This document shows positions 1 to 10,902 of a stretch of DNA of 64,000 nt, in pieces. The stretch comes from Halothiobacillus diazotrophicus. GTDB taxonomy: Bacteria; Pseudomonadota; Gammaproteobacteria; Halothiobacillales; Halothiobacillaceae. Positions within the stretch are counted from its first letter, which is position 1; each line of letters starts with the position of its first letter. The notes below the pieces were generated by a model. It was given only the letters and a program-made list of their open reading frames with translations. It was not told the DNA's origin and did not search any database. The DNA lies in NCBI RefSeq assembly GCF_001663815.1, contig NZ_CP016027.1, forward strand, positions 1,426,001 to 1,490,000, written 5' to 3'. The translations under genes were made by a program, and so were the position numbers.

Positions 1-249
1 ACCTGTCCATGACGCGCACCTGAGCCCGGCAAAGATACGCCCGCGACGCTGTTGGGGGAAAGTCGTGTCGTCAGTGCGTTCAACGCCCCGCGTGCACGCA
101 GACAATGCCACGACGTTCGGTGGCATGCGCACCACAGCCCAGGACCGAGGGCGCCCCACCCTGAGGTGAGCGCCATGGACAGTGTGCGCCGAGCTGGTTG
201 AAAGACGGTATTTGCAATCAGGTATTCCTAACGGAACCGGAGAACCATC
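1..249. other. Leader region upstream of dabB; possible tail of an upstream gene
   Basis: No gene can be supported here. One plus-strand frame is open from base 2 to a TGA at 167-169 (about 55 codons). It could be the 3' end of a gene lying to the left, but the translation is rich in Arg, Thr and Ser and matches nothing I recognise. Another frame stops at base 23. In related carboxysome loci the cso genes lie upstream of dabB, so a cut-off carboxysome-related gene is plausible but not shown. A weak promoter can be imagined before dabB (TTGAAA at 198-203 with a poor -10 near 221-228). The dabB ribosome site is the purine-rich CCGGAGA just before its ATG. Confidence 0.3.
105..126. promoter_or_regulatory. 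Short inverted repeat upstream of dabB
   Basis: ATGCCAC at 105-111 and GTGGCAT at 120-126 form a perfect 7-bp inverted repeat with an 8-base spacer. No T-run follows, so it is not a standard intrinsic terminator. It could be an operator half-site pair, an mRNA processing hairpin between the upstream operon and dabB, or chance. Confidence 0.3.
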
Positions 250-1932
250 ATGATACATAGCCAATGGTTGATTCCATTGTTACCCATCGCCTCCGCCGTG
301 CTGGTGCATCTGCTCGCCGGGCGGTTGGGCAAGCGGGTCGCCAAGCTGAGCGTCGCGGTCAGCACGCTGACCGTGGTGGTGGCGCTCTACAGCCTGATCG
401 GTTACATCACGACCCAGAGCAATCCGTACTGGGCCAGCCTGGGCGGATCCTGGGGCAGCCTGATCCTCGACCCGCTGAGCAGCATCATGTCCCTCGTGGT
501 TGCCGGGATCAGCCTCATCGTGCACATCTATTCCGTGCGGTACATGGCGGAAGAACCTGGCTACCCCCGGTTTTTCATGCTCCTCGACCTGATGACCGCG
601 TCGATCCTCCTGATGGTCTCCGCCGGCGATCTGATCACGCTGCTGGTTGCCTGGCATCTGGTCGGCGTGCTGCTGTACTTTCTCCTGGGACAGAACACCG
701 AATCCTGGCCAAGCCAGCGCTACGCCTTCTGGACATTCATCACCTATCGGATCGGCGATCTGCCTCTGGTGCTTGCGGCCGTCCTGCTTTATCAGGCCTA
801 CGGCGCACTGGATTTCCCGACGCTGTTCGCCCGTATTGCCGAAAATCCGGACGCCACCAGCGTATTGGGTCTGCCGGTGACCGCCACCGTCGCCCTGATG
901 GTCGCCTTCTCGGCCTTCGCCAAATCGGCCCAGTTCCCGCTGCACACCTGGTTGCCGTACACGATGGAAGGCCCGACCCCCGTCTCGGCACTGATGCACG
1001 CGGGCATCGTCAATGCGGGCGGTTTCATCATCAACCGCTTCGCCCCCGTTTTCGTCCACAGCGACGGGGTACTTCATCTGCTGTTCATCGTCGGCCTCAT
1101 CACCGCCCTCATCGGATCGGTACTCATGCTGACCCAGAACGACATCAAGAAATCACTGGGCTATTCGACCATGGGCCAGATGGGCTTCATGGTCATGGAG
1201 TGTGGCCTGGGCGCGTTCTCGCTGGCCGTCTTCCACCTGATTGCGCATGGCTTGTTCAAGGGCACCATGTTCCTCGGCTCGGGCAGCATGATCGGTGAGG
1301 CGCGGCAGCATGATGGCGTCCCGCACAACCCGTTGTACACCTTCCTCGTCGAACGCAAGTCCGCCAGCACGAAACTGCCCTGGCTGATCATCGGCGTGGT
1401 CACCCTGGTCGTGCCGCTGGCCATTCTGGTGCTGGCCCATTGGGTGGTTGCCGCCGACTTCTTCCAAAAGCAGGGGGCGATCGTGCTGCTGTTTTTCGGC
1501 TGGATCACCGGCGTTCAGGTACTGTTCGCCACCCACCGTCTCGACGCCAGCAACCCCATCCGCATGATGATGCTGATCCTGCTGTCATTCACCCTGATCG
1601 TGGTGGGCTACACCTTCATCGGTCACGCCTTCGAGAACTTCCTCTACCCGGATGAAGCGTTCCGAAACGCGATCTATCACACGGCGGGCATCGATGCCCT
1701 GACCTTCGACGGTCTCGTGGTGCTCCTTGCCCTGATCGTCATCGGTGGCTGGATCAGCAGCTACCTGACCACCCGAGACGAATCCCTGTTCGGCAACCGC
1801 TTCGGCAATCTGCAACTCACGCTGTACTCGCTGATTTCCCGCGAATTCTACGTGGCAGATCTGTATGACCGCATGGCCCATACCCTGCTCGATGTCTCCA
1901 AGCGGTTGAATGTCTGGCTGAGGTGGTACTGA
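250..1932 (+). CDS. dabB: DabB, membrane subunit of the DAB inorganic-carbon pump (NuoL/MrpA-like)
   Basis: A 560-residue polytopic membrane protein of the NADH-quinone oxidoreductase subunit 5 / Mrp antiporter family. The conserved core is visible around residues 215-260 (a FAKSAQFPLHTWLP stretch followed by GPTPVSALMHAG). Complex I subunits are not encoded nearby; instead dabA follows two genes downstream, which is the signature of the DAB (DABs accumulate bicarbonate) system. In that system DabB is thought to couple ion movement across the membrane to vectorial CO2 hydration by DabA. The length fits DabB better than full NuoL (about 610). The start is the first ATG after a purine-rich ribosome site. 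The next gene begins 3 bases after the stop, so translation is probably coupled. Confidence 0.9.
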   Translation: MIHSQWLIPLLPIASAVLVHLLAGRLGKRVAKLSVAVSTLTVVVALYSLIGYITTQSNPYWASLGGSWGSLILDPLSSIMSLVVAGISLIVHIYSVRYMAEEPGYPRFFMLLDLMTASILLMVSAGDLITLLVAWHLVGVLLYFLLGQNTESWPSQRYAFWTFITYRIGDLPLVLAAVLLYQAYGALDFPTLFARIAENPDATSVLGLPVTATVALMVAFSAFAKSAQFPLHTWLPYTMEGPTPVSALMHAGIVNAGGFIINRFAPVFVHSDGVLHLLFIVGLITALIGSVLMLTQNDIKKSLGYSTMGQMGFMVMECGLGAFSLAVFHLIAHGLFKGTMFLGSGSMIGEARQHDGVPHNPLYTFLVERKSASTKLPWLIIGVVTLVVPLAILVLAHWVVAADFFQKQGAIVLLFFGWITGVQVLFATHRLDASNPIRMMMLILLSFTLIVVGYTFIGHAFENFLYPDEAFRNAIYHTAGIDALTFDGLVVLLALIVIGGWISSYLTTRDESLFGNRFGNLQLTLYSLISREFYVADLYDRMAHTLLDVSKRLNVWLRWY

Positions 1933-1935
1933 CCC

Positions 1936-2679
1936 ATGAACTCCCTACTCTTGCTGATGGCGGGTTTCTTCCTGCCGCTGTTCCCGTTGAGCATCGTGTT
2001 TAATGCCTTGCTCAGCCGACTCTGTCATCCGGTGCTCCGCGTCATGCTGATCCTGGTCTGGCCGCAGATCGGCGTACTGCTGCTGGCAGCATCCGGACTG
2101 CCGCTCAGCTCGGACTTCTTCCTCGGTTGGGGCCTGCTGACCGCCCTGTTCTACGCCTGGCGCCTGCTCACTGTCCGTGATCTGGGGCAGTGGGCCGCCA
2201 TGCTGGCCACCTCCGCCTGGGCCATGACCTGGGCCGCCGCCACAGCGAACGACAGTCACAGCCTGCATGCCTTCGTTCTGTGGCTGTCCGTGGCACCGGC
2301 ACTGCTGATCCTGATCGGCGTCGCCCTCAAGAAGCGCTTCGGTGCCGCCTATGCCGGTCTCGTACTCGGTTTGGCCCGCGATCTGCCGCGTCTGTCCGCC
2401 CTGATCGTGATCGTGGTACTTGCCGCCATGGCCCTGCCCCTGTTCCCCGCGTTTTTCGCCCTGCTTCAGCTTCTGATGCACACCAGTATCGGTGTCGCGA
2501 TCCCCGTCCTGCTGACCTGGTTGCTGTGGAGCTGGTCCGGCACGCGTCTGCTGAACGGTCTCGTGTTCGGGCCCCGTTCCGGCGCCATTGCCGACGATCT
2601 CGACCTGCGCCTGACCTGGGCGTTTACGGGCCTGATCGCAGCCATCGTTCTGTTGAACCTGATCTGGACAGGAGCCTGA
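1936..2679 (+). CDS. Uncharacterised polytopic membrane protein between dabB and dabA
   Basis: A 247-residue, strongly hydrophobic protein with about seven to eight predicted membrane spans and short loops. I recognise no catalytic motif. It sits 3 bases after dabB and 4 bases before dabA, so it is almost certainly co-translated with the two DAB subunits. It may be an accessory or third subunit of the pump, for example extending the DabB membrane arm. It has no clear NuoL/NuoN signature by eye, so calling it a split DabB fragment would be a guess. Confidence is high that it is a gene and low for its role. Confidence 0.75.
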   Translation: MNSLLLLMAGFFLPLFPLSIVFNALLSRLCHPVLRVMLILVWPQIGVLLLAASGLPLSSDFFLGWGLLTALFYAWRLLTVRDLGQWAAMLATSAWAMTWAAATANDSHSLHAFVLWLSVAPALLILIGVALKKRFGAAYAGLVLGLARDLPRLSALIVIVVLAAMALPLFPAFFALLQLLMHTSIGVAIPVLLTWLLWSWSGTRLLNGLVFGPRSGAIADDLDLRLTWAFTGLIAAIVLLNLIWTGA

Positions 2680-2683
2680 GCAT

Positions 2684-5600
2684 ATGAGCCGTCTTCCTTT
2701 GGGTCACCGCCTGAAAATCCGATCCATGGTCCATATGGCCGCCGAGCCGATTCCGAATTTCTGGCCGATGCGGACCTTCATCCATCACAATCCGTTGCAT
2801 GGTCTCGAACACTTGCCGTTCGAAGAGGCCGTTCGCCAGGGCGAGCACCTGTTTCATGCCCGCGGTTTTCTACCCAGAGCGGATTACCAGCATTATCTGA
2901 ACCAGGGGCGGGTCGATCGCGACAGCCTGCGTCACAGCATTCAGGAATTTCTCGCCGATCGTGATGCCATCGGCGATCTCGACCGTACCGAGTTGCTGGA
3001 GACGCTGCTCTGCCAGACACCGGAAAAGGTTAGCCGGATGCGCTCGCTCGCGGATGCGGACGACATCCATCACGCCCTGCGCGGCGAGACCCTGAGAAAC
3101 GGGGAAATCACCGACCTCGAAGCATTGAATGCGCGTCTTCAGGCCCAGTTTCCGGCCGACCGGCCGCTGTACGAGGCCATTGATGCCCTGTTCGGCACCG
3201 ACATTGGCACCACGCTGGACGAACTGGTCGTCAAGAGCTGTCTCGACTTCTTCGACGAAGGTCAGTCGACCTGGGGCATGCCGGGCCGCCGGGATGGTCT
3301 GTTCACGGCCTGGAGCGCACTGGCCAAACGCAACCTCCGTCTGTTCCTGCGCGGCCTGCATATCAAGCAGATCCTGGCGCAGGACGACACCCCGGAAGGC
3401 ACGATTGCCTACATCCTGAGTGAACTCGGAATCGACGAAGATCACTGGGATGGTCTGATCACCCGCGAATTGACGCGCCTGCACGGCTGGGCCGGTTTTC
3501 TGCGCTGGCGCTCCTCGGCCAAGAACTACTACTGGTCGACGCAGTACCCCGCCGATCTGATCGATTTCCTGGCGATCCGCCTGGTTCTGGGGCTGGCGCT
3601 CATCCGCGAGCACGCCCGGCGGAAGCGTACGCCGGACACCCTCCCGAAACTCTCGGCCTATATCGAACAGCACACGGCGGAATGTTATCTGCGCCTCGCC
3701 TATCACGGCGGCTGCGTCCTGCCCGAATTCGCGCACGACGTCGACGATGCGCTGGCGCATCGTCATCCCGCTCGCGTCAACCGCATCCTGCCCGATTATC
3801 TACAGGCCCAGCGGGTCGCCGAAGCCCGCCGTCAGGCCAAGGCGCTGGTGGATCTGGCCTCGGCCGCCGGTCAGCTCGATGCCCTCAAGGCGCTCGACAG
3901 CGCACAAATCGCATCGCTCCTGGCACTGCTGCAGACCTTCGAGGAAAACGAAGGCATGGCTTGGCTGCGGGCCATGGAAACCGTATACCGGAACGAATTG
4001 CTGGCTCGCCTGAAGCCCGCGCCGACCGTCCAGCGCGAGAAGCGGCCCTTCGCCCAGATCCTGTTCTGCATTGACGTTCGCTCCGAGCGGGTGCGCCGCC
4101 AGCTCGAAACCGTCGGCGACTACCAGACCTTCGGCATTGCCGGTTTCTTTGGGGTACCGGTGAGCTTCATCGGCCTCGGCAAGGGCAGCGAAGTCAATCT
4201 GTGCCCCGTCGTCGTGACCCCCAAGAACCTGGTCCTCGAAGTGCCCACGGGCGCCGAGCCGATGGATGCCCAGTTCTACACCTCTGCCGGACATATCCTG
4301 CACGAAATGAAAAGCTCCGTGCTCTCGCCGTATTTCACGGTCGAGGCGGCAGGTCTGCTCTTCGGTTTCGACATGATCGGCAAGACGGTCGCCCCGTACA
4401 CGTATCACCGTCTGCGCGACCGGATCGAACCGGAAAAGACCTCGACCCGACTGCTCGTCGACAAGCTGACGCGCGAACAGGCCGACTCCATCGTGCGTGC
4501 CCTGCAGCGGGTGATGATCGTCCGTGCCATTCACCAGGATTTCGGCATCGAGCGCGAGGCCCTGACCGATGCCATCGTGCGGGAGCTGCGCGAGGTGGCG
4601 ATGGGCCATCAGAGCGGCCAGACGGAATTCGCCCGACAGTTCGCCCTGAGCCAGACCGCCGAAGAACAGTTCATCGAGCGTCTGCGCGAGGACTACAAGA
4701 TCAACCGTTCCTACGTCGACCTGCAGATGGAACGACTGGGCCGAATCGGCTTCACCCTGGACGAACAGACCTACTACGTCGGGCAGGCACTGCGCTCCAT
4801 CGGCCTGACCGAGAACTTCTCGCGGTTCGTCATCCTCTCCGGCCACGGCAGCACCTCGGACAACAACCCCTACGAATCCGCCCTGGACTGTGGCGCCTGC
4901 GGCGGCAGTCACGGCCTGGTATCCGCGCGCGTACTCGCACACATGGGCAACAAGCCGGAAGTGCGCCGTCGCCTGCGCAAGCAGGGCCTCGACATCCCCG
5001 ACGACGCCTGGTTCGTGCCCATGCTGCACAACACCACCACGGACGCGCTTGAGCTGCACGATCTGGATCTGCTGCCGGCGAGCCACCTCGTCTACCTCGA
5101 GCGGTTGCGCAACGGCCTCCGGGCTGCGTCCCGCCTGTCCGCCGCCGAACGCCTGCCCACCCTGGTGGAGCGCGTCACGCCGAATACCGATGCACTCAAG
5201 GCCTATCGCCTGATCCAGCGCAACGCCTCGGACTGGACCCAGGTTCGCCCGGAATGGGGTCTGGCGCGCAATGCCTCCGTCATCGTCGGCGGGCGCCATC
5301 TCACCGAAGGCGTCAATCTGGATGGCCGCACCTTCCTCCAGTCCTACGATTACCGGGTTGACCCGAAGGGACGCCTGCTCGAGAGCATCCTCACCGGCCC
5401 CCTGATCGTCGGCCAGTGGATCAACCTGGAGCATTATTTTTCCGCCGTCGACAATGCCCACTTCGGCAGTGGCAGCAAGGCCTACCACAATGTCGCCTGC
5501 CGCTTCGGCGTGATGACGGGCAACCTGAGCGACCTCCGCACCGGCCTGCCCGCCCAGTCCGTACTCAAGGACGGTCGTCCGTACCACGAACCCATCCGAC

Positions 5601-5824
5601 TGCTCGCCATCGTCGAGGCGCCGGTCGAACACACGCTCGCGGCAGCCAGCCGTCTACCGAAGGTCATGTCCCTGATCACCAACGGCTGGATCACCGTCGT
5701 GGTGATCGATCCGGAGACCGGCCACCGCCATTTTTATGACCGCGGAGAATGGTATGATCTGGGCGAAGGCCCCATTGCCGCGATTCCGAAACAACCTCCG
5801 CTTGCAGAAGAGCTCAGCGTATGA
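2684..5824 (+). CDS. dabA: DabA, zinc-dependent CO2-hydrating subunit of the DAB pump (DUF2309)
   Basis: A 1046-residue soluble protein of the DUF2309 family. The beta-carbonic-anhydrase-like site is readable: C462 and D464 in LFCIDVRSE, H721 in SGHGSTSDNN, and C736 in LDCGACGG. The spacing (2 between Cys and Asp, 15 between His and Cys) matches the zinc ligands reported for Halothiobacillus DabA. DabA bound to DabB hydrates CO2 to bicarbonate on the cytoplasmic side. The protein is longer than the roughly 830-residue DabA2 type, as expected for the version linked to carboxysome loci. A good ribosome site (AGGAG) precedes the ATG. The stop overlaps the start of the next gene (ATGA). Confidence 0.93.
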   Translation: MSRLPLGHRLKIRSMVHMAAEPIPNFWPMRTFIHHNPLHGLEHLPFEEAVRQGEHLFHARGFLPRADYQHYLNQGRVDRDSLRHSIQEFLADRDAIGDLDRTELLETLLCQTPEKVSRMRSLADADDIHHALRGETLRNGEITDLEALNARLQAQFPADRPLYEAIDALFGTDIGTTLDELVVKSCLDFFDEGQSTWGMPGRRDGLFTAWSALAKRNLRLFLRGLHIKQILAQDDTPEGTIAYILSELGIDEDHWDGLITRELTRLHGWAGFLRWRSSAKNYYWSTQYPADLIDFLAIRLVLGLALIREHARRKRTPDTLPKLSAYIEQHTAECYLRLAYHGGCVLPEFAHDVDDALAHRHPARVNRILPDYLQAQRVAEARRQAKALVDLASAAGQLDALKALDSAQIASLLALLQTFEENEGMAWLRAMETVYRNELLARLKPAPTVQREKRPFAQILFCIDVRSERVRRQLETVGDYQTFGIAGFFGVPVSFIGLGKGSEVNLCPVVVTPKNLVLEVPTGAEPMDAQFYTSAGHILHEMKSSVLSPYFTVEAAGLLFGFDMIGKTVAPYTYHRLRDRIEPEKTSTRLLVDKLTREQADSIVRALQRVMIVRAIHQDFGIEREALTDAIVRELREVAMGHQSGQTEFARQFALSQTAEEQFIERLREDYKINRSYVDLQMERLGRIGFTLDEQTYYVGQALRSIGLTENFSRFVILSGHGSTSDNNPYESALDCGACGGSHGLVSARVLAHMGNKPEVRRRLRKQGLDIPDDAWFVPMLHNTTTDALELHDLDLLPASHLVYLERLRNGLRAASRLSAAERLPTLVERVTPNTDALKAYRLIQRNASDWTQVRPEWGLARNASVIVGGRHLTEGVNLDGRTFLQSYDYRVDPKGRLLESILTGPLIVGQWINLEHYFSAVDNAHFGSGSKAYHNVACRFGVMTGNLSDLRTGLPAQSVLKDGRPYHEPIRLLAIVEAPVEHTLAAASRLPKVMSLITNGWITVVVIDPETGHRHFYDRGEWYDLGEGPIAAIPKQPPLAEELSV

Positions 5825-6147
5825 ACAACCTCAATCTCACCCCCCTCAAAAAGCTGGAAATCATTCTCGAGGGCGAGCACCAGGCGTTCGCCACGGATCT
5901 GCTCGATCGTGCCGGCGTGAAGGGTTACACCATCGTCGGCAACCTCTCGGGCAAGGGTAGCCAGGGCTACCACGAAGGACACCTGATGTTCAACGAGGAC
6001 GAAGTGCTGATCATGATCATCGCCGCCGTCCCCGAGGAACTCGTCAAACCGCTGCTCGAAGGCTTCGCGCCCTTCTTCAACAAGCACAGCGGCGTCGTGT
6101 TCCTCTCGGACATCCAGGTCAGTCGACTGGTGAAATTCAAGAGCTGA
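5821..6147 (+). CDS. CPII-like PII signalling protein
   Basis: A 108-residue PII-superfamily protein with the ferredoxin-like fold pattern (KKLEIILEGE strand at the start, IIAAVPEELVKPLLEGF helix and VVFLSDIQVSRL strand at the end). The T-loop region (about 40-58) is short and lacks the tyrosine that GlnD modifies in canonical GlnB/GlnK. It has no cysteine at all. Proteins of this kind beside DAB or bicarbonate-transporter genes are called CPII; the one studied structurally binds ADP/AMP and bicarbonate. Its ATG overlaps the dabA stop, pointing to translational coupling and a role in tuning DabAB. The ligand is an inference. Confidence 0.82.
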   Translation: MNNLNLTPLKKLEIILEGEHQAFATDLLDRAGVKGYTIVGNLSGKGSQGYHEGHLMFNEDEVLIMIIAAVPEELVKPLLEGFAPFFNKHSGVVFLSDIQVSRLVKFKS

Positions 6148-6225: not shown

Positions 6226-7029
6226 ATGACTCAGAACGTCGATCAATACCGCGTGCAACGCGAGCCGTACTATCGTCCCGTACATGATGAAATCGAACTG
6301 TACCGCGCCGGCTACGAGGCCCGCATCCCGATGATGCTCAAGGGCCCGACTGGCTGCGGCAAATCGCGCTTCGTCGAACACATGGCCTGGAAACTCAACC
6401 GGCCGCTGATCACCGTCGCGTGTAACGAGGACATGACGGCTTCCGACCTCGTCGGCCGCTACCTGCTCGACAAGGACGGCACCCGCTGGCAGGACGGCCC
6501 CCTGACCGTCGCAGCCCGCATCGGCGCCATCTGCTATCTGGACGAAGTGGTCGAGGCCCGTCAGGACACCATCGTCGTGATTCACCCGCTCACCGACCAC
6601 CGTCGCGTGCTGCCCCTGGAAAAGAAAGGGGAACTGGTCGAAGCCCACCCGGACTTTCAGATCGTGATCTCCTACAACCCCGGCTACCAGAACCTGATGA
6701 AGGATCTGAAGCAATCCACCAAGCAGCGTTTCGGCGCCCTGGACTTCGACTACCCGAAACCGGACATCGAAGCGGAAATCGTGGCCCACGAGACGGGTGT
6801 GGATGTCGGCACGGCCGAGAAGCTGGTTCAAATCGCCCAGCGGGCCCGCAACCTCAAGGGCCACGGCCTCGACGAAGGTCTGTCCACCCGTCTGCTGGTC
6901 TACGCGGGCAAGCTGATCGCCAAGGGCGTGGAAGCCCGCGCCGCCTGCACCATGACCCTGGTCAACCCGATCACCGATGATGTGGACATGCGCGATGCGC
7001 TCGACACGGTCGTCAAGACCTTCTTCTGA
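6226..7029 (+). CDS. cbbQ: CbbQ, AAA+ subunit of the Rubisco activase
   Basis: A 267-residue MoxR-group AAA+ ATPase of the CbbQ/NirQ/NorQ family. Walker A is GPTGCGKS at residues 40-47 and Walker B is CYLDE at 103-107. CbbQ hexamers with one CbbO (a von Willebrand A-domain adaptor) remodel inhibited Rubisco, and carboxysomal CbbQ binds the shell. NorQ/NirQ are close paralogs, but the DAB genes before it and csoS1D after it favour CbbQ. No cbbO follows: the next gene encodes only 101 residues, so the partner must lie upstream of the window or elsewhere. A purine-rich AAGGCAAC sits just before the ATG. Confidence 0.85.
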   Translation: MTQNVDQYRVQREPYYRPVHDEIELYRAGYEARIPMMLKGPTGCGKSRFVEHMAWKLNRPLITVACNEDMTASDLVGRYLLDKDGTRWQDGPLTVAARIGAICYLDEVVEARQDTIVVIHPLTDHRRVLPLEKKGELVEAHPDFQIVISYNPGYQNLMKDLKQSTKQRFGALDFDYPKPDIEAEIVAHETGVDVGTAEKLVQIAQRARNLKGHGLDEGLSTRLLVYAGKLIAKGVEARAACTMTLVNPITDDVDMRDALDTVVKTFF

Positions 7030-7059
7030 TGTCGGCCGCCACTTGAGGTAATCACTGTC

Positions 7060-7365
7060 ATGATGAAACAGATCAATTACGTCGGCCTGGACGAGGACGA
7101 ACAGGGCGGCCTGACGCACATCGGCAAGATCATCCGCGATGGCTGGCTGTTCGGCTTCATCCCCGAAACCCAGACCGGTGCCGGCTGGAACCAAGGCCAG
7201 ATCCAATCGCTGTACGAGAAGGTCTGGGCGGCCTGGGAACCCTACGCCCACCTGCCGAGCCGTCTGCCGCCCGAGTTGCAGGAAAAGTACATGCGCATCC
7301 AGAACGAGGCACTGGCAAAAGCCAAGGCCAAGGGCTGGGATCCGGAACTCGAAGACGATGATTGA
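7060..7365 (+). CDS. Unrecognised 101-residue protein between cbbQ and csoS1D
   Basis: A small soluble protein I do not recognise. It begins with a Met-Met-Lys-Gln start, has a Gly/Trp/aromatic-rich middle (WLFGFIP, GAGWNQGQ), then a predicted helical stretch, and ends in an acidic tail (EDDD). It has no signal peptide, membrane span or cysteine. A ribosome site (TTGAGGTAA) sits about 9 bases before the ATG, and the gene is 30 bases after cbbQ, so it belongs to the operon. It occupies the place where cbbO often follows cbbQ but shows no von Willebrand A domain. A role in CbbQ/CbbO function or cargo recruitment is only suggested by position. Confidence 0.7.
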   Translation: MMKQINYVGLDEDEQGGLTHIGKIIRDGWLFGFIPETQTGAGWNQGQIQSLYEKVWAAWEPYAHLPSRLPPELQEKYMRIQNEALAKAKAKGWDPELEDDD

Positions 7366-7485: not shown

Positions 7486-8124
7486 ATGAACAATGTCAAC
7501 CTGCGGGTCTATTCGTTTATCGACTCGCTTCAACCGCAGTTGGCATCCTATCTCGCCACGTCGTCGCAGGGCTTCCTTCCGGTGCCCGGCGATGCCTGCC
7601 TGTGGGTGGAGGTCGCCCCCGGCATGGCCGTACATCGCCTGAGCGACATCGCACTGAAGGCCACCAGCGTGCGCCTGGGCGAGCAGGTGGTGGAACGGGC
7701 GTTCGGCTCCATGGAAATTCACTTCAGGAACCAGAGCGAAGTACTCGCCGCGGGCGAAGGCATCCTGCGCGAGATCAACCACGAGGTTGGCGACCGCCTC
7801 CCCTGTCGCATCGCCTGGAAAGAGATCATCCGCGCCATCTCGCCCGACCACGCGACGCTGATCAACCGACAGTTCCGCAAGGGGTCGATGTTGTTGCCCG
7901 GCAAGAGCATGTTCATTCTGGAAACGGAACCGGCCGGCTATATCGTGCAGGCCGCCAACGAGGCGGAAAAGGCCGCGCATGTCACCCTGATCGATGTGCG
8001 CGCCTTCGGGACCTTCGGTCGACTCGTCATGATGGGCAGCGAGGCCGAGACCGCCGAGGCGATGCGCGCCGCGGAAGCCGCCATTGCGAGCATCAATGCC
8101 CACGCCCGCGACGACGGCAGATAA
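7486..8124 (+). CDS. csoS1D: CsoS1D, tandem-BMC gated carboxysome shell protein
   Basis: A 212-residue protein with two bacterial-microcompartment domains, roughly residues 5-95 and 105-207 (the second has the [17 protein letters not shown] stretch typical of the fold). [20 protein letters not shown] and [10 protein letters not shown] follow cyanobacterial CsoS1D closely. The Glu-Arg pair that opens and closes the large central pore corresponds to E70/R71 here. CsoS1D trimers stack face to face and are thought to admit ribulose bisphosphate and 3-phosphoglycerate. The long N-terminal extension of the Prochlorococcus protein is absent. No strong ribosome site precedes the ATG (CCTTTT), so translation may be low, consistent with a minor shell component. 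Confidence 0.9.
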
Positions 8125-8235: not shown

Positions 8236-9066
8236 ATGCTGACCTATCCAGACATCAACCCGATCGCCGTTGCCATCGGCCCATTCAAGGTTCACTGGTA
8301 TGGGCTGATGTACCTCGTGGGCTTCGTCGGCGCCTGGGCGCTGGGCCGGTACCGCGCCGCCAAACCGGACTGGCCGCTAACCCCCGAGCAGGTCGACGAT
8401 CTGATCTTCTATGGCGCGCTGGGCGTCGTCCTTGGCGGGCGCATCGGCTACATGGTCTTCTATCAGACACCGGAACTGATCACCCACCCCCTGAGCCTGT
8501 TCCAGGTCTGGGACGGCGGCATGAGCTTCCATGGCGGCCTGATCGGCGTGATGACAGCCATGGCGCTGTTTGCCCGAAAATACCATTACAACTTTTTCAC
8601 CCTGATGGATTTCGTCGCGCCGCTGGTCCCCATCGGCCTGTTTGCGGGGCGCATCGGCAACTTCATCAACGGCGAACTCTGGGGGAAGGTGACCACCCTG
8701 CCCTGGGGCATGGTCTTCCCGACCGGTGGCCCGTTGCCCCGGCACCCCTCCATGCTCTACGAAGCCTTCTCGGAAGGCATTTTGCTGTTTCTGATCCTGT
8801 TCATCTTCTCGCTGAAACCGCGCCCGCGCATGGCCGTTTCCGCCCTTTTCCTCATCTGTTACGGCACCTTCCGCTTTCTGGTCGAATTCGTCCGGGAACC
8901 GGATCCCCAGCTGGGCTATCTCTGGGACGGCTGGCTGACCATGGGACAAGTGCTCTCCGCCCCCATGATCGTGATCGGCATCGGTCTGATGATCTATGCC
9001 TACCGCCGTCGGATCATGGATCGTCCCGTTCAACCGATCACCTCATCGGAGGAATCCGCATCATGA
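8236..9066 (+). CDS. lgt: Prolipoprotein diacylglyceryl transferase
   Basis: A 276-residue inner-membrane enzyme that transfers diacylglycerol from phosphatidylglycerol to the lipobox cysteine of prolipoproteins. Family motifs are clear: HWYGLMYL near the N-terminus, GGRIGY, the signature [13 protein letters not shown] in the middle, and RHPSMLYEA after it, with about seven membrane spans. Length is normal. The last codons overlap the thyA start (ATGA), the common lgt-thyA arrangement of gammaproteobacteria. A 111-base gap separates it from csoS1D, with no convincing terminator between them. Confidence 0.97.
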
Positions 9067-10311: not shown

Positions 10312-10821
10312 ATGAAGATCGGACTGGTAACCGCACTATCCCGCAATCAGGTGATTGGCAGAAACAACGAACTGCCCTGGCACCTGCCAGCGGATCTGAA
10401 ACGCTTCAAGCGCATCACGATGGGCAAGCCCATCATCATGGGGCGCAAGACCTACGAATCCATCGGGCGCGCGCTGCCGGGCCGCAAGAACATCGTCATC
10501 AGTCGAAATCCCGACTATCAGGCGGCCGAAGGCGTCATCGTGGTCGATGGCCTGGATGCCGCCATCGAGGCCGCGGGCGATGCGCCGGAAACCATGGTCA
10601 TCGGCGGAGCGAACATCTATTACCAGTTCCTGCCGCGGGCGGATCTTCTGTTCTTCACGCTAGTGCACACCCGCATCGAGGACGGCGACGCCTTCTTCCC
10701 GGCCTACAACCGGCGGGAATGGCGACTGGTCATCGAGGAACATCACCCGGCCGACCCGGAAAATCCCTACCCCTACAGCTTCATGACCTGGCAAAGGGTC
10801 ACGACTCAAACGACCTCCTGA
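10312..10821 (+). CDS. folA: Dihydrofolate reductase
   Basis: A 169-residue cytoplasmic enzyme that reduces dihydrofolate to tetrahydrofolate with NADPH. Diagnostic segments are present: NNELPWHLPADLKRFK (substrate site), MGRKTYESIGRALPGRKNIV (NADPH site), and VIGGANIYYQFL with FFPAYN near the C-terminus. Length is normal. It lies 5 bases after psiE, with a poor ribosome site, so it is likely to depend on coupling to psiE translation. Confidence 0.97.
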   Translation: MKIGLVTALSRNQVIGRNNELPWHLPADLKRFKRITMGKPIIMGRKTYESIGRALPGRKNIVISRNPDYQAAEGVIVVDGLDAAIEAAGDAPETMVIGGANIYYQFLPRADLLFFTLVHTRIEDGDAFFPAYNRREWRLVIEEHHPADPENPYPYSFMTWQRVTTQTTS

Positions 10822-10902
10822 ACGCCCCCCTGCCCATTCATCCGAAAATATCGTCCGTTGAGCCGGACACACCGGGAATAACCTAGCGCTGGGCTGCGGC
10901 GT

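Follow-up and report, generated by a model that had tools for sequence, protein, structure and literature searches.

The locus described here raises the question of what a short unnamed gene, hereafter X, contributes between a RuBisCO activase gene and a carboxysome shell gene. The window, meaning the whole stretch of 64,000 nucleotides from Halothiobacillus diazotrophicus that was analysed, carries X at positions 7060–7365, and the original prediction, made from the sequence alone, regarded the product as a good candidate for a new carboxysome or activase accessory factor. Many chemoautotrophs rely on form IA RuBisCO, which is also a candidate enzyme in efforts to engineer faster fixation of carbon. 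An overlooked helper, if there is one, could affect the yield or stability of this enzyme in foreign hosts, and X would become a new family among RuBisCO accessory proteins if its function were confirmed.

Gene X and its neighbourhood

The predicted reading frame was confirmed as an ATG to TGA frame of 101 codons that begins 30 bp past the cbbQ stop codon and is followed by csoS1D 120 bp further down (Table 1). Pfam searches likewise bore out the proposed operon of CO2-pump, Rubisco-activase and shell-pore genes, with dabB, dabA, a P-II gene and cbbQ upstream of X and csoS1D downstream. The idea that X sits where cbbO might be expected did not survive, as cbbO is present just upstream with its stop codon at window bases 10–12; X is thus not standing in for cbbO, and this candidate role was rejected. 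In the 20 kb upstream of the window, tblastn identified cbbL, cbbS, cbbR and cbbO plus a second cbbQ/cbbO set belonging to a form II RuBisCO. Inspection of the same 20 kb by eye added what we take to be the end of a gene for form II RuBisCO, csoS2, csoSCA, two csoS4 genes, csoS1 genes and, presumably, a bacterioferritin-like gene, acRAF and parA. The gene at 8236–9066 is putatively lgt and is called so here. Counterparts of the window ORF at 1936–2679, 41–68% identical, were also observed between dabB and dabA at loci L002, L038 and L138.

Table 1. Features in and around gene X, in window coordinates
Feature	Position	Strand	Basis
cbbO, last codons and stop (stop codon at 10–12), body just before the window	1–12	+	tblastn and upstream fetch
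dabB (NuoL-like)	250–1932	+	PF00361
Membrane-protein-like ORF between dabB and dabA, without Pfam family	1936–2679	+	Pfam search; membrane character by eye
dabA	2684–5824	+	PF10070
P-II-like protein	5821–6147	+	PF00543
cbbQ (AAA+ RuBisCO activase ATPase)	6226–7029	+	PF07728, PF08406
GAGGT, ribosome-binding-site-like, 10 nt 5' of the X ATG	7045–7049	+	Read from sequence
Gene X, 101-aa protein, conserved family without name or family model	7060–7365	+	ORF, homologue search, alignment, dN/dS
Conserved core of X, residues 7–43, consensus YVGI..D..GGMT..G.IIRDAWVFGLIPETETCEGW; near-invariant Cys40 is Gly here	7078–7188	+	Alignment
Predicted helix, residues 20–31	7117–7152	+	AlphaFold2 model, mean pLDDT 88.8, pTM 0.78
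Predicted helix, residues 45–62	7192–7245	+	AlphaFold2 model
Predicted helix, residues 71–90	7270–7329	+	AlphaFold2 model
C-terminal tail, acidic, low-confidence, residues 94–101	7339–7362	+	Composition and model
csoS1D-type BMC shell protein	7486–8124	+	BMC domain; CcmP model below cut-off (227.7 of 340 bits)
lgt-like gene, constant flank downstream of X across the genus	8236–9066	+	Conserved position; name putative

X is a genuine, widely conserved protein family without a name. It is single-copy in its own genome by genome search, and the dN/dS value against its closest homologue was 0.12 (dS 1.58), with values of 0.05–0.15 across five pairs indicating purifying selection. Alignment of 70 members showed seven invariant columns and the consensus YVGI..D..GGMT..G.IIRDAWVFGLIPETETCEGW...LP.ELRERH.RI..EA..RAR..GW, followed by a mostly acidic tail; Cys40 was retained in 96% of 135 rows and is Gly in the X of the window. 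The Trp/Gly-rich character and acidic tail noted originally hold for the window protein (5 Trp, 10 Gly and a D/E-rich end), and so does the claim that it has no known domain, as neither Pfam nor NCBIfam returned a family for it at E<=1. Searching 125 X members against Pfam gave a best E value of 0.0088, to an unrelated model matched by two members, while a single-sequence search of PDB sequences returned E 0.39 and worse and a search of PHROGs yielded two entries of unknown function (E 0.017 and 0.33) and no credible match. PDB chain 8fjg 'H12' was considered as a relative on a profile match of 9e-5 over 48 residues and was set aside as probably a chance match of helices. No viral relative was confirmed among 31 candidate stretches, and the promoter and terminator scan gave nothing beyond shuffled expectation.

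The X alignments used for modelling (A2, 66 rows; A3, 125 rows) are subsets of the X places described below. An AlphaFold2 model built on the 66 rows reached a mean pLDDT of 88.8 and a pTM of 0.78 and placed helices at residues 20–31, 45–62 and 71–90, a short one at 95–98 and a low-confidence end. A second model, led by a member from a cbbLS-X-cbbQO operon and built on 125 rows, scored 88.7 and 0.80 and returned the same three main helices; X is therefore predicted to be all-helical. Comparison of the X model with PDB structures gave no match at E<=0.001, and a second structure comparison gave a best Z of 2.2 over 55 residues (rmsd 4.8) with no RuBisCO chaperone among the matches listed; a model-based Z of this size is evidence of neither a new nor an old fold.

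It could be argued that X is a spurious ORF or a passenger, given that it is without a family model and that the Halothiobacillus neapolitanus gene between csocbbQ (Hneap_0905) and csoS1D was termed 'hypothetical' and 'not conserved among loci' in the accessible text of Sutter et al. (2015, PMC4633670). Against this stand the presence of X in 111 of 369 genomes, the seven invariant columns in 70 rows, the dN/dS values of all five pairs and the confident structure models; the spurious-ORF reading is refuted by this conservation, and we regard it as next to inconceivable. Judging by its identical gene position, the H. neapolitanus gene is probably the X orthologue; it was described as not conserved, whereas X as surveyed here is a conserved family found mostly outside carboxysome loci.

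X accompanies form I RuBisCO

The distribution of X was surveyed in 369 genomes from 272 genera of the window's class, a sample not weighted for relatedness. X was detected as a strong match (E<1e-13) in 111 genomes and at E<=0.1 in 119, so that the stricter threshold dropped eight, including one (G241) with a real gene piece in a 48-aa open frame. Form I RuBisCO was scored as a PF00016 match of about 1e-128 or better, a cut set after seeing the list and near which matches are ambiguous, and by this definition it was found in 99 of the 111 genomes with X in comparison to 38 of the 258 without (p ~9e-44, unweighted for relatedness). Relaxing the definition to any PF00016 match at E<=1e-20 gave 106/111 versus 76/258. 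Identities of cbbL were mostly 80–97% to two reference cbbL sequences of cbbLS-X-cbbQO operons, and the form I enzyme accompanying X is probably type IA, as judged by cbbL identity and by CbbQO and cso neighbours rather than by a cbbL tree. A profile search for X in the 38 form I genomes lacking it came back empty for 37 of them and with a gene piece for the remaining one (G241); form IA RuBisCO can therefore do without X.

Twelve of the 111 X genomes gave no form I match, of which four had form II as the best match (G131, G163, G232, G304), three had weak or partial RuBisCO matches (G052, G154, G318) and five had none (G033, G048, G285, G300, G360), even at E<=1e-5. These five genomes are the weakest point of the RuBisCO reading. 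Four of them are 72–93% complete and G360 is scored as 100% complete. Of the two X genes in G360, one is next to what remains of a cbbO and the other is on a contig that begins acRAF-parA-cbbR; with these genes at the contig edge the RuBisCO operon may be absent from the assembly, which suggests a gap.

Outside the class, X was found in 12 of 398 genomes of the phylum, nine of these belonging to a single family from a different class, where it is present in 9 of 74 genomes. In a second draw, eight of the nine X genomes of family f207 gave a RuBisCO match, which in seven was a full-length form I match on the X contig within ~4 kb. Among 72,556 plasmid records a single one, from Nitrobacter hamburgensis, carried X. 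On this plasmid (L038:981-13786) a dabB-hypothetical-dabA-P-II set adjoining X occurs twice in tandem, and the P-II and hypothetical proteins of both sets share the same accession.

Gene order around X

All X places in the 111 class genomes, 117 in number, were read with their flanks; a wider set of 138 places adds named records and duplicates of three genomes. X lies near cbb, cso or dab genes at 59 of the 117 places, and 58 have none of these within the fetched flanks; by a rough binomial estimate the linkage is far beyond chance if ~1% of a genome lies near such genes. The most frequent order was cbbL-cbbS-X-cbbQ-cbbO (30/117), followed by X on the strand of cbbO and no more than 1.3 kb downstream of it (12/117). 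Less frequent were cbbQ-X-cbbO (two places), cut operons (two), other arrangements within 7.5 kb (nine) and X near cso or dab genes only (three); the window itself is the one remaining linked place. The commonest recurring neighbours were RuBisCO, activase and LysR genes, and at the 64 unlinked places of the 138 no neighbour cluster occurred at more than nine places in a clustering that overlooked the diverged family Y described below. These data show that X and form I RuBisCO tend to be found in the same genomes and that X is frequently part of cbbLS(X)QO operons.

Several individual loci are worth recording. One operon (L060) contains two X genes (6998-7300 and 10619-10882) flanking cbbQ and cbbO in the order cbbLS-X-cbbQO-X. 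At L162:6554-7288 a C-terminal cbbO remnant directly precedes an intact X, and the fetched stretch gave no match to cbbL, cbbS or cbbQ. A second unnamed family of ~140 aa, here Y, recurs beside X in the fetched loci, as at L003:8288-8689 (-), L203:8869-9282 (+), L144:2177-2623 and L091:1861-2307, with neither an NCBIfam match nor a credible match in Pfam. It lies within 100 bp of X at eight of the 117 class places (L042, L046, L059, L061, L066, L069, L071, L128). Two Nitrosomonas have it 3 bp from X, six genomes of the window's genus have it in the interval from X to lgt, and some cbbLS-X-cbbQO operons carry it close to their end; where it adjoins X the two are 3–60 bp apart in some lineages.

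Two natural experiments

All ten searched genomes of the window's genus possess X, and two other genomes of its family (G757, G759) lack it. Within the genus X is upstream of lgt in 10/10, at distances from 55 bp to ~4.2 kb, and its other neighbour takes one of two forms. Six genomes (G748-G753) have a plain RuBisCO operon there, reading cbbL-cbbS-cbbQ-cbbO-X in five and cbbO-X at the start of a contig in the sixth. The window, G747, G754 and G755 have X in a carboxysome satellite operon, dab-P-II-cbbQ-X, with csoS1D present in three and absent in G754. CbbQ identity to that of the window was 75–76% in the five complete plain operons in comparison to 87–95% in the three other satellite operons, and X identity was 61–69% and 70–76%, respectively. 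The simplest account of the gene orders and sequence identities would be that X stayed in place and the adjoining RuBisCO operon was exchanged.

The second case is locus L144 (genome G153), where an intact X is flanked on one side by a cbbL fragment of 110 residues. The short ORF on its other side has a match to 31 residues of cbbO and, by eye, a cbbQ-like start. This genome has kept carboxysomal cbbLS and csoS2 on another contig.

Carboxysome, activase or RuBisCO

If X were a carboxysome component or assembly factor, it should be restricted to, or enriched in, genomes with CsoS2. Some loci agree with such a role: X lies in a carboxysome satellite operon in the window, in three further genomes of its genus and at L002, it adjoins dabAB on the Nitrobacter plasmid, and the carboxysome locus L163:2720-12303 ends, as the window's does, in csoS1D-X; the 19 kb fetched there gave no match to cbbQ or cbbO, and the best CbbQ match elsewhere in that genome is 7.7e-127. 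Homologues are nonetheless widespread without carboxysome genes. CsoS2 was found in 50 of the 111 X genomes (40/80 and 10/31) and not in 61, and among form I genomes its share was 49/99 with X versus 22/38 without, which is no enrichment (p 0.45). Matches to the window genome's csoS2, csoSCA, csoS4A and csoS1 were absent from the fetched flanks of all 30 cbbLS-X-cbbQO loci, and in fetched flanks such matches occurred at L081, L120, L163 and L177 only. A carboxysome-specific role is ruled out by the CsoS2 counts, the carboxysome as the general function of X is largely refuted and its involvement as shell component or assembly factor is very improbable. The accessible text of PMC9040747 does not mention X. 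The carboxysome label of the original prediction was too narrow; its idea of an accessory factor has good support as far as an association with form I RuBisCO, probably of type IA, is concerned.

The activase half of that prediction fared differently. X might join CbbQ and CbbO as a third activase component or might regulate them, for instance as an adaptor that modulates the CbbQ ATPase or presents RuBisCO to CbbO. At 44 of the 117 places it lies in the cbbS–cbbQ or the cbbQ–cbbO interval or at most 1.3 kb behind cbbO. Window-type CbbQ, defined by a match of ~1e-136 or better (a cut also set after seeing the list, with ambiguous matches near it), was present in 82/111 genomes with X versus 20/258 without, and among form I genomes X occurred in 77 of 92 with this CbbQ in comparison to 22 of 45 without it (odds ratio 5.4, p 4e-5). 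The latter 22 genomes argue against an activase subunit: 19 have CsoS2, only two have CbbX, and their CbbQ matches were none at E<=1e-60 in nine, only 1e-91 to ~1e-107 in eight and intermediate in five. In the opposite direction, 15 form I genomes have window-type CbbQ and no strong X by the first search, one of them (G241) with the X gene piece, and the available text of Tsai et al. (2021, PMC8718961) describes purified CbbQO activating RuBisCO in vitro without an X-like protein. With CbbQ presence counted genome-wide, X parts more readily from CbbQ than from RuBisCO and is not an obligate activase subunit. The enrichment with CbbQ stands, and a role within the activase seems unlikely. Of the 23 form I genomes with neither X nor window-type CbbQ, CbbX was over the cut-off in nine and below it in one; the nine suggest that X belongs with the green-type rather than the red-type enzyme.

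A further alternative is that X belongs to the CBB regulon and acts away from RuBisCO, in regulation, carbon sensing or on another Calvin-cycle enzyme. The 58 of 117 X genes unlinked to cbb genes, the five X genomes in which RuBisCO was not found and the widely retained Cys40, which could be functional, are compatible with this. The most recurrent neighbours are nevertheless RuBisCO, activase and LysR genes, and the cysteine is replaced by Gly in the window, and we consider action elsewhere in the cycle rather doubtful.

The reading we tentatively favour, at somewhat under an even chance, is that X is an accessory protein dedicated to green-type form IA RuBisCO, both carboxysomal (IAc) and non-carboxysomal (IAq), with a likely part in assembly or upkeep. 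X accompanies one RuBisCO class with or without carboxysomes, which makes it a probable, so far overlooked, helper of the enzyme. As a small helical protein it would bind RuBisCO itself, either the large subunit or an assembly intermediate, and the bound protein may aid assembly or upkeep while needing neither CbbQO nor a shell. Window-type acRAF gave no match in the fetched flanks of all 30 cbbLS-X-cbbQO loci, and a dedicated small helper would be sensible in such plain operons. A broader and more speculative version, in our view improbable as a whole, is that X, in some lineages with family Y, forms a hitherto unrecognised module for the maturation or upkeep of form IA RuBisCO in proteobacteria, comparable to RbcX/Raf1 and kept through activase loss and through the swap from plain operon to carboxysome.

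Such a helper would not be essential. In the gene list given in the accessible part of PMC2942843 the Acidithiobacillus ferrooxidans cbbL2-S2-Q2-O2 operon has no X-like gene (genes 'hyp1' and 'hyp2' appear in that paper), and A. ferrooxidans form I RuBisCO has been made functional in E. coli, according to the available text of PMC4660213. With no X-like gene in the operon as listed and a functional enzyme from E. coli, such a helper would tune yield or stability.

X in the literature

No literature naming X was found in a search whose coverage leaves out most subscription journals, and the sole remark on a gene at this position, in the text accessible, was that of PMC4633670. Flamholz et al. 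(2020, PMC7714395, accessible text) cloned a ten-gene operon of H. neapolitanus, which was transferred to E. coli as pCCM, and the X orthologue is probably among these ten genes, in which case it may already have travelled to E. coli unremarked. In another study, as far as its accessible text goes, the DNA between cbbS and cbbQ was deleted and treated as non-coding (PMC5506194). A 2026 review lists acRaf, CbbQO, McdAB, Dab and Ham1 as peripheral factors, with no mention of X in the available text (PMC12918739).

Comparison with known systems

CbbQ and CbbO resemble X in that they are often encoded in the same operon and would share its partner enzyme; X differs in having neither an AAA+ nor a vWA domain and in occurring without window-type CbbQ in form I genomes, as noted above. 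The small gene behind cbbO in the Nitrosomonas europaea cbbLSQON operon, cbbN, may be a similar case and possibly X. The likeness is one of position only, a small unnamed gene behind cbbO such as the 12 X genes downstream of cbbO. A difference is seen in genome G323, where X is encoded away from cbbO and the ORF after cbbO is long and, by eye, phosphorylase-like; the G323 X groups with two Nitrosomonas X in a tree that has few columns for its 134 rows and was used for nearest relatives only.

Two further systems are closer in kind. acRAF, the PCD-like putative RuBisCO assembly factor of alpha-carboxysomes, is likewise small and an accessory protein associated with form IA RuBisCO, and a putative acRAF-like ORF, named by its position, lies upstream in this genome. 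acRAF belongs to another family, as PF01329 (pterin dehydratase-like) was not matched by the window X at E<=1 and is absent from the 12 families matched by 125 X members at E<=0.1. RbcX is the small, all-helical assembly chaperone of cyanobacterial RuBisCO, with the gene order rbcL-rbcX-rbcS. X has no Pfam match and sits after cbbS, in contrast to RbcX, and the structure matches listed for X include no RuBisCO chaperone, though a fold in common with RbcX is conceivable. The two are alike in being small, in being all-helical (X by prediction) and in being encoded in a RuBisCO operon.
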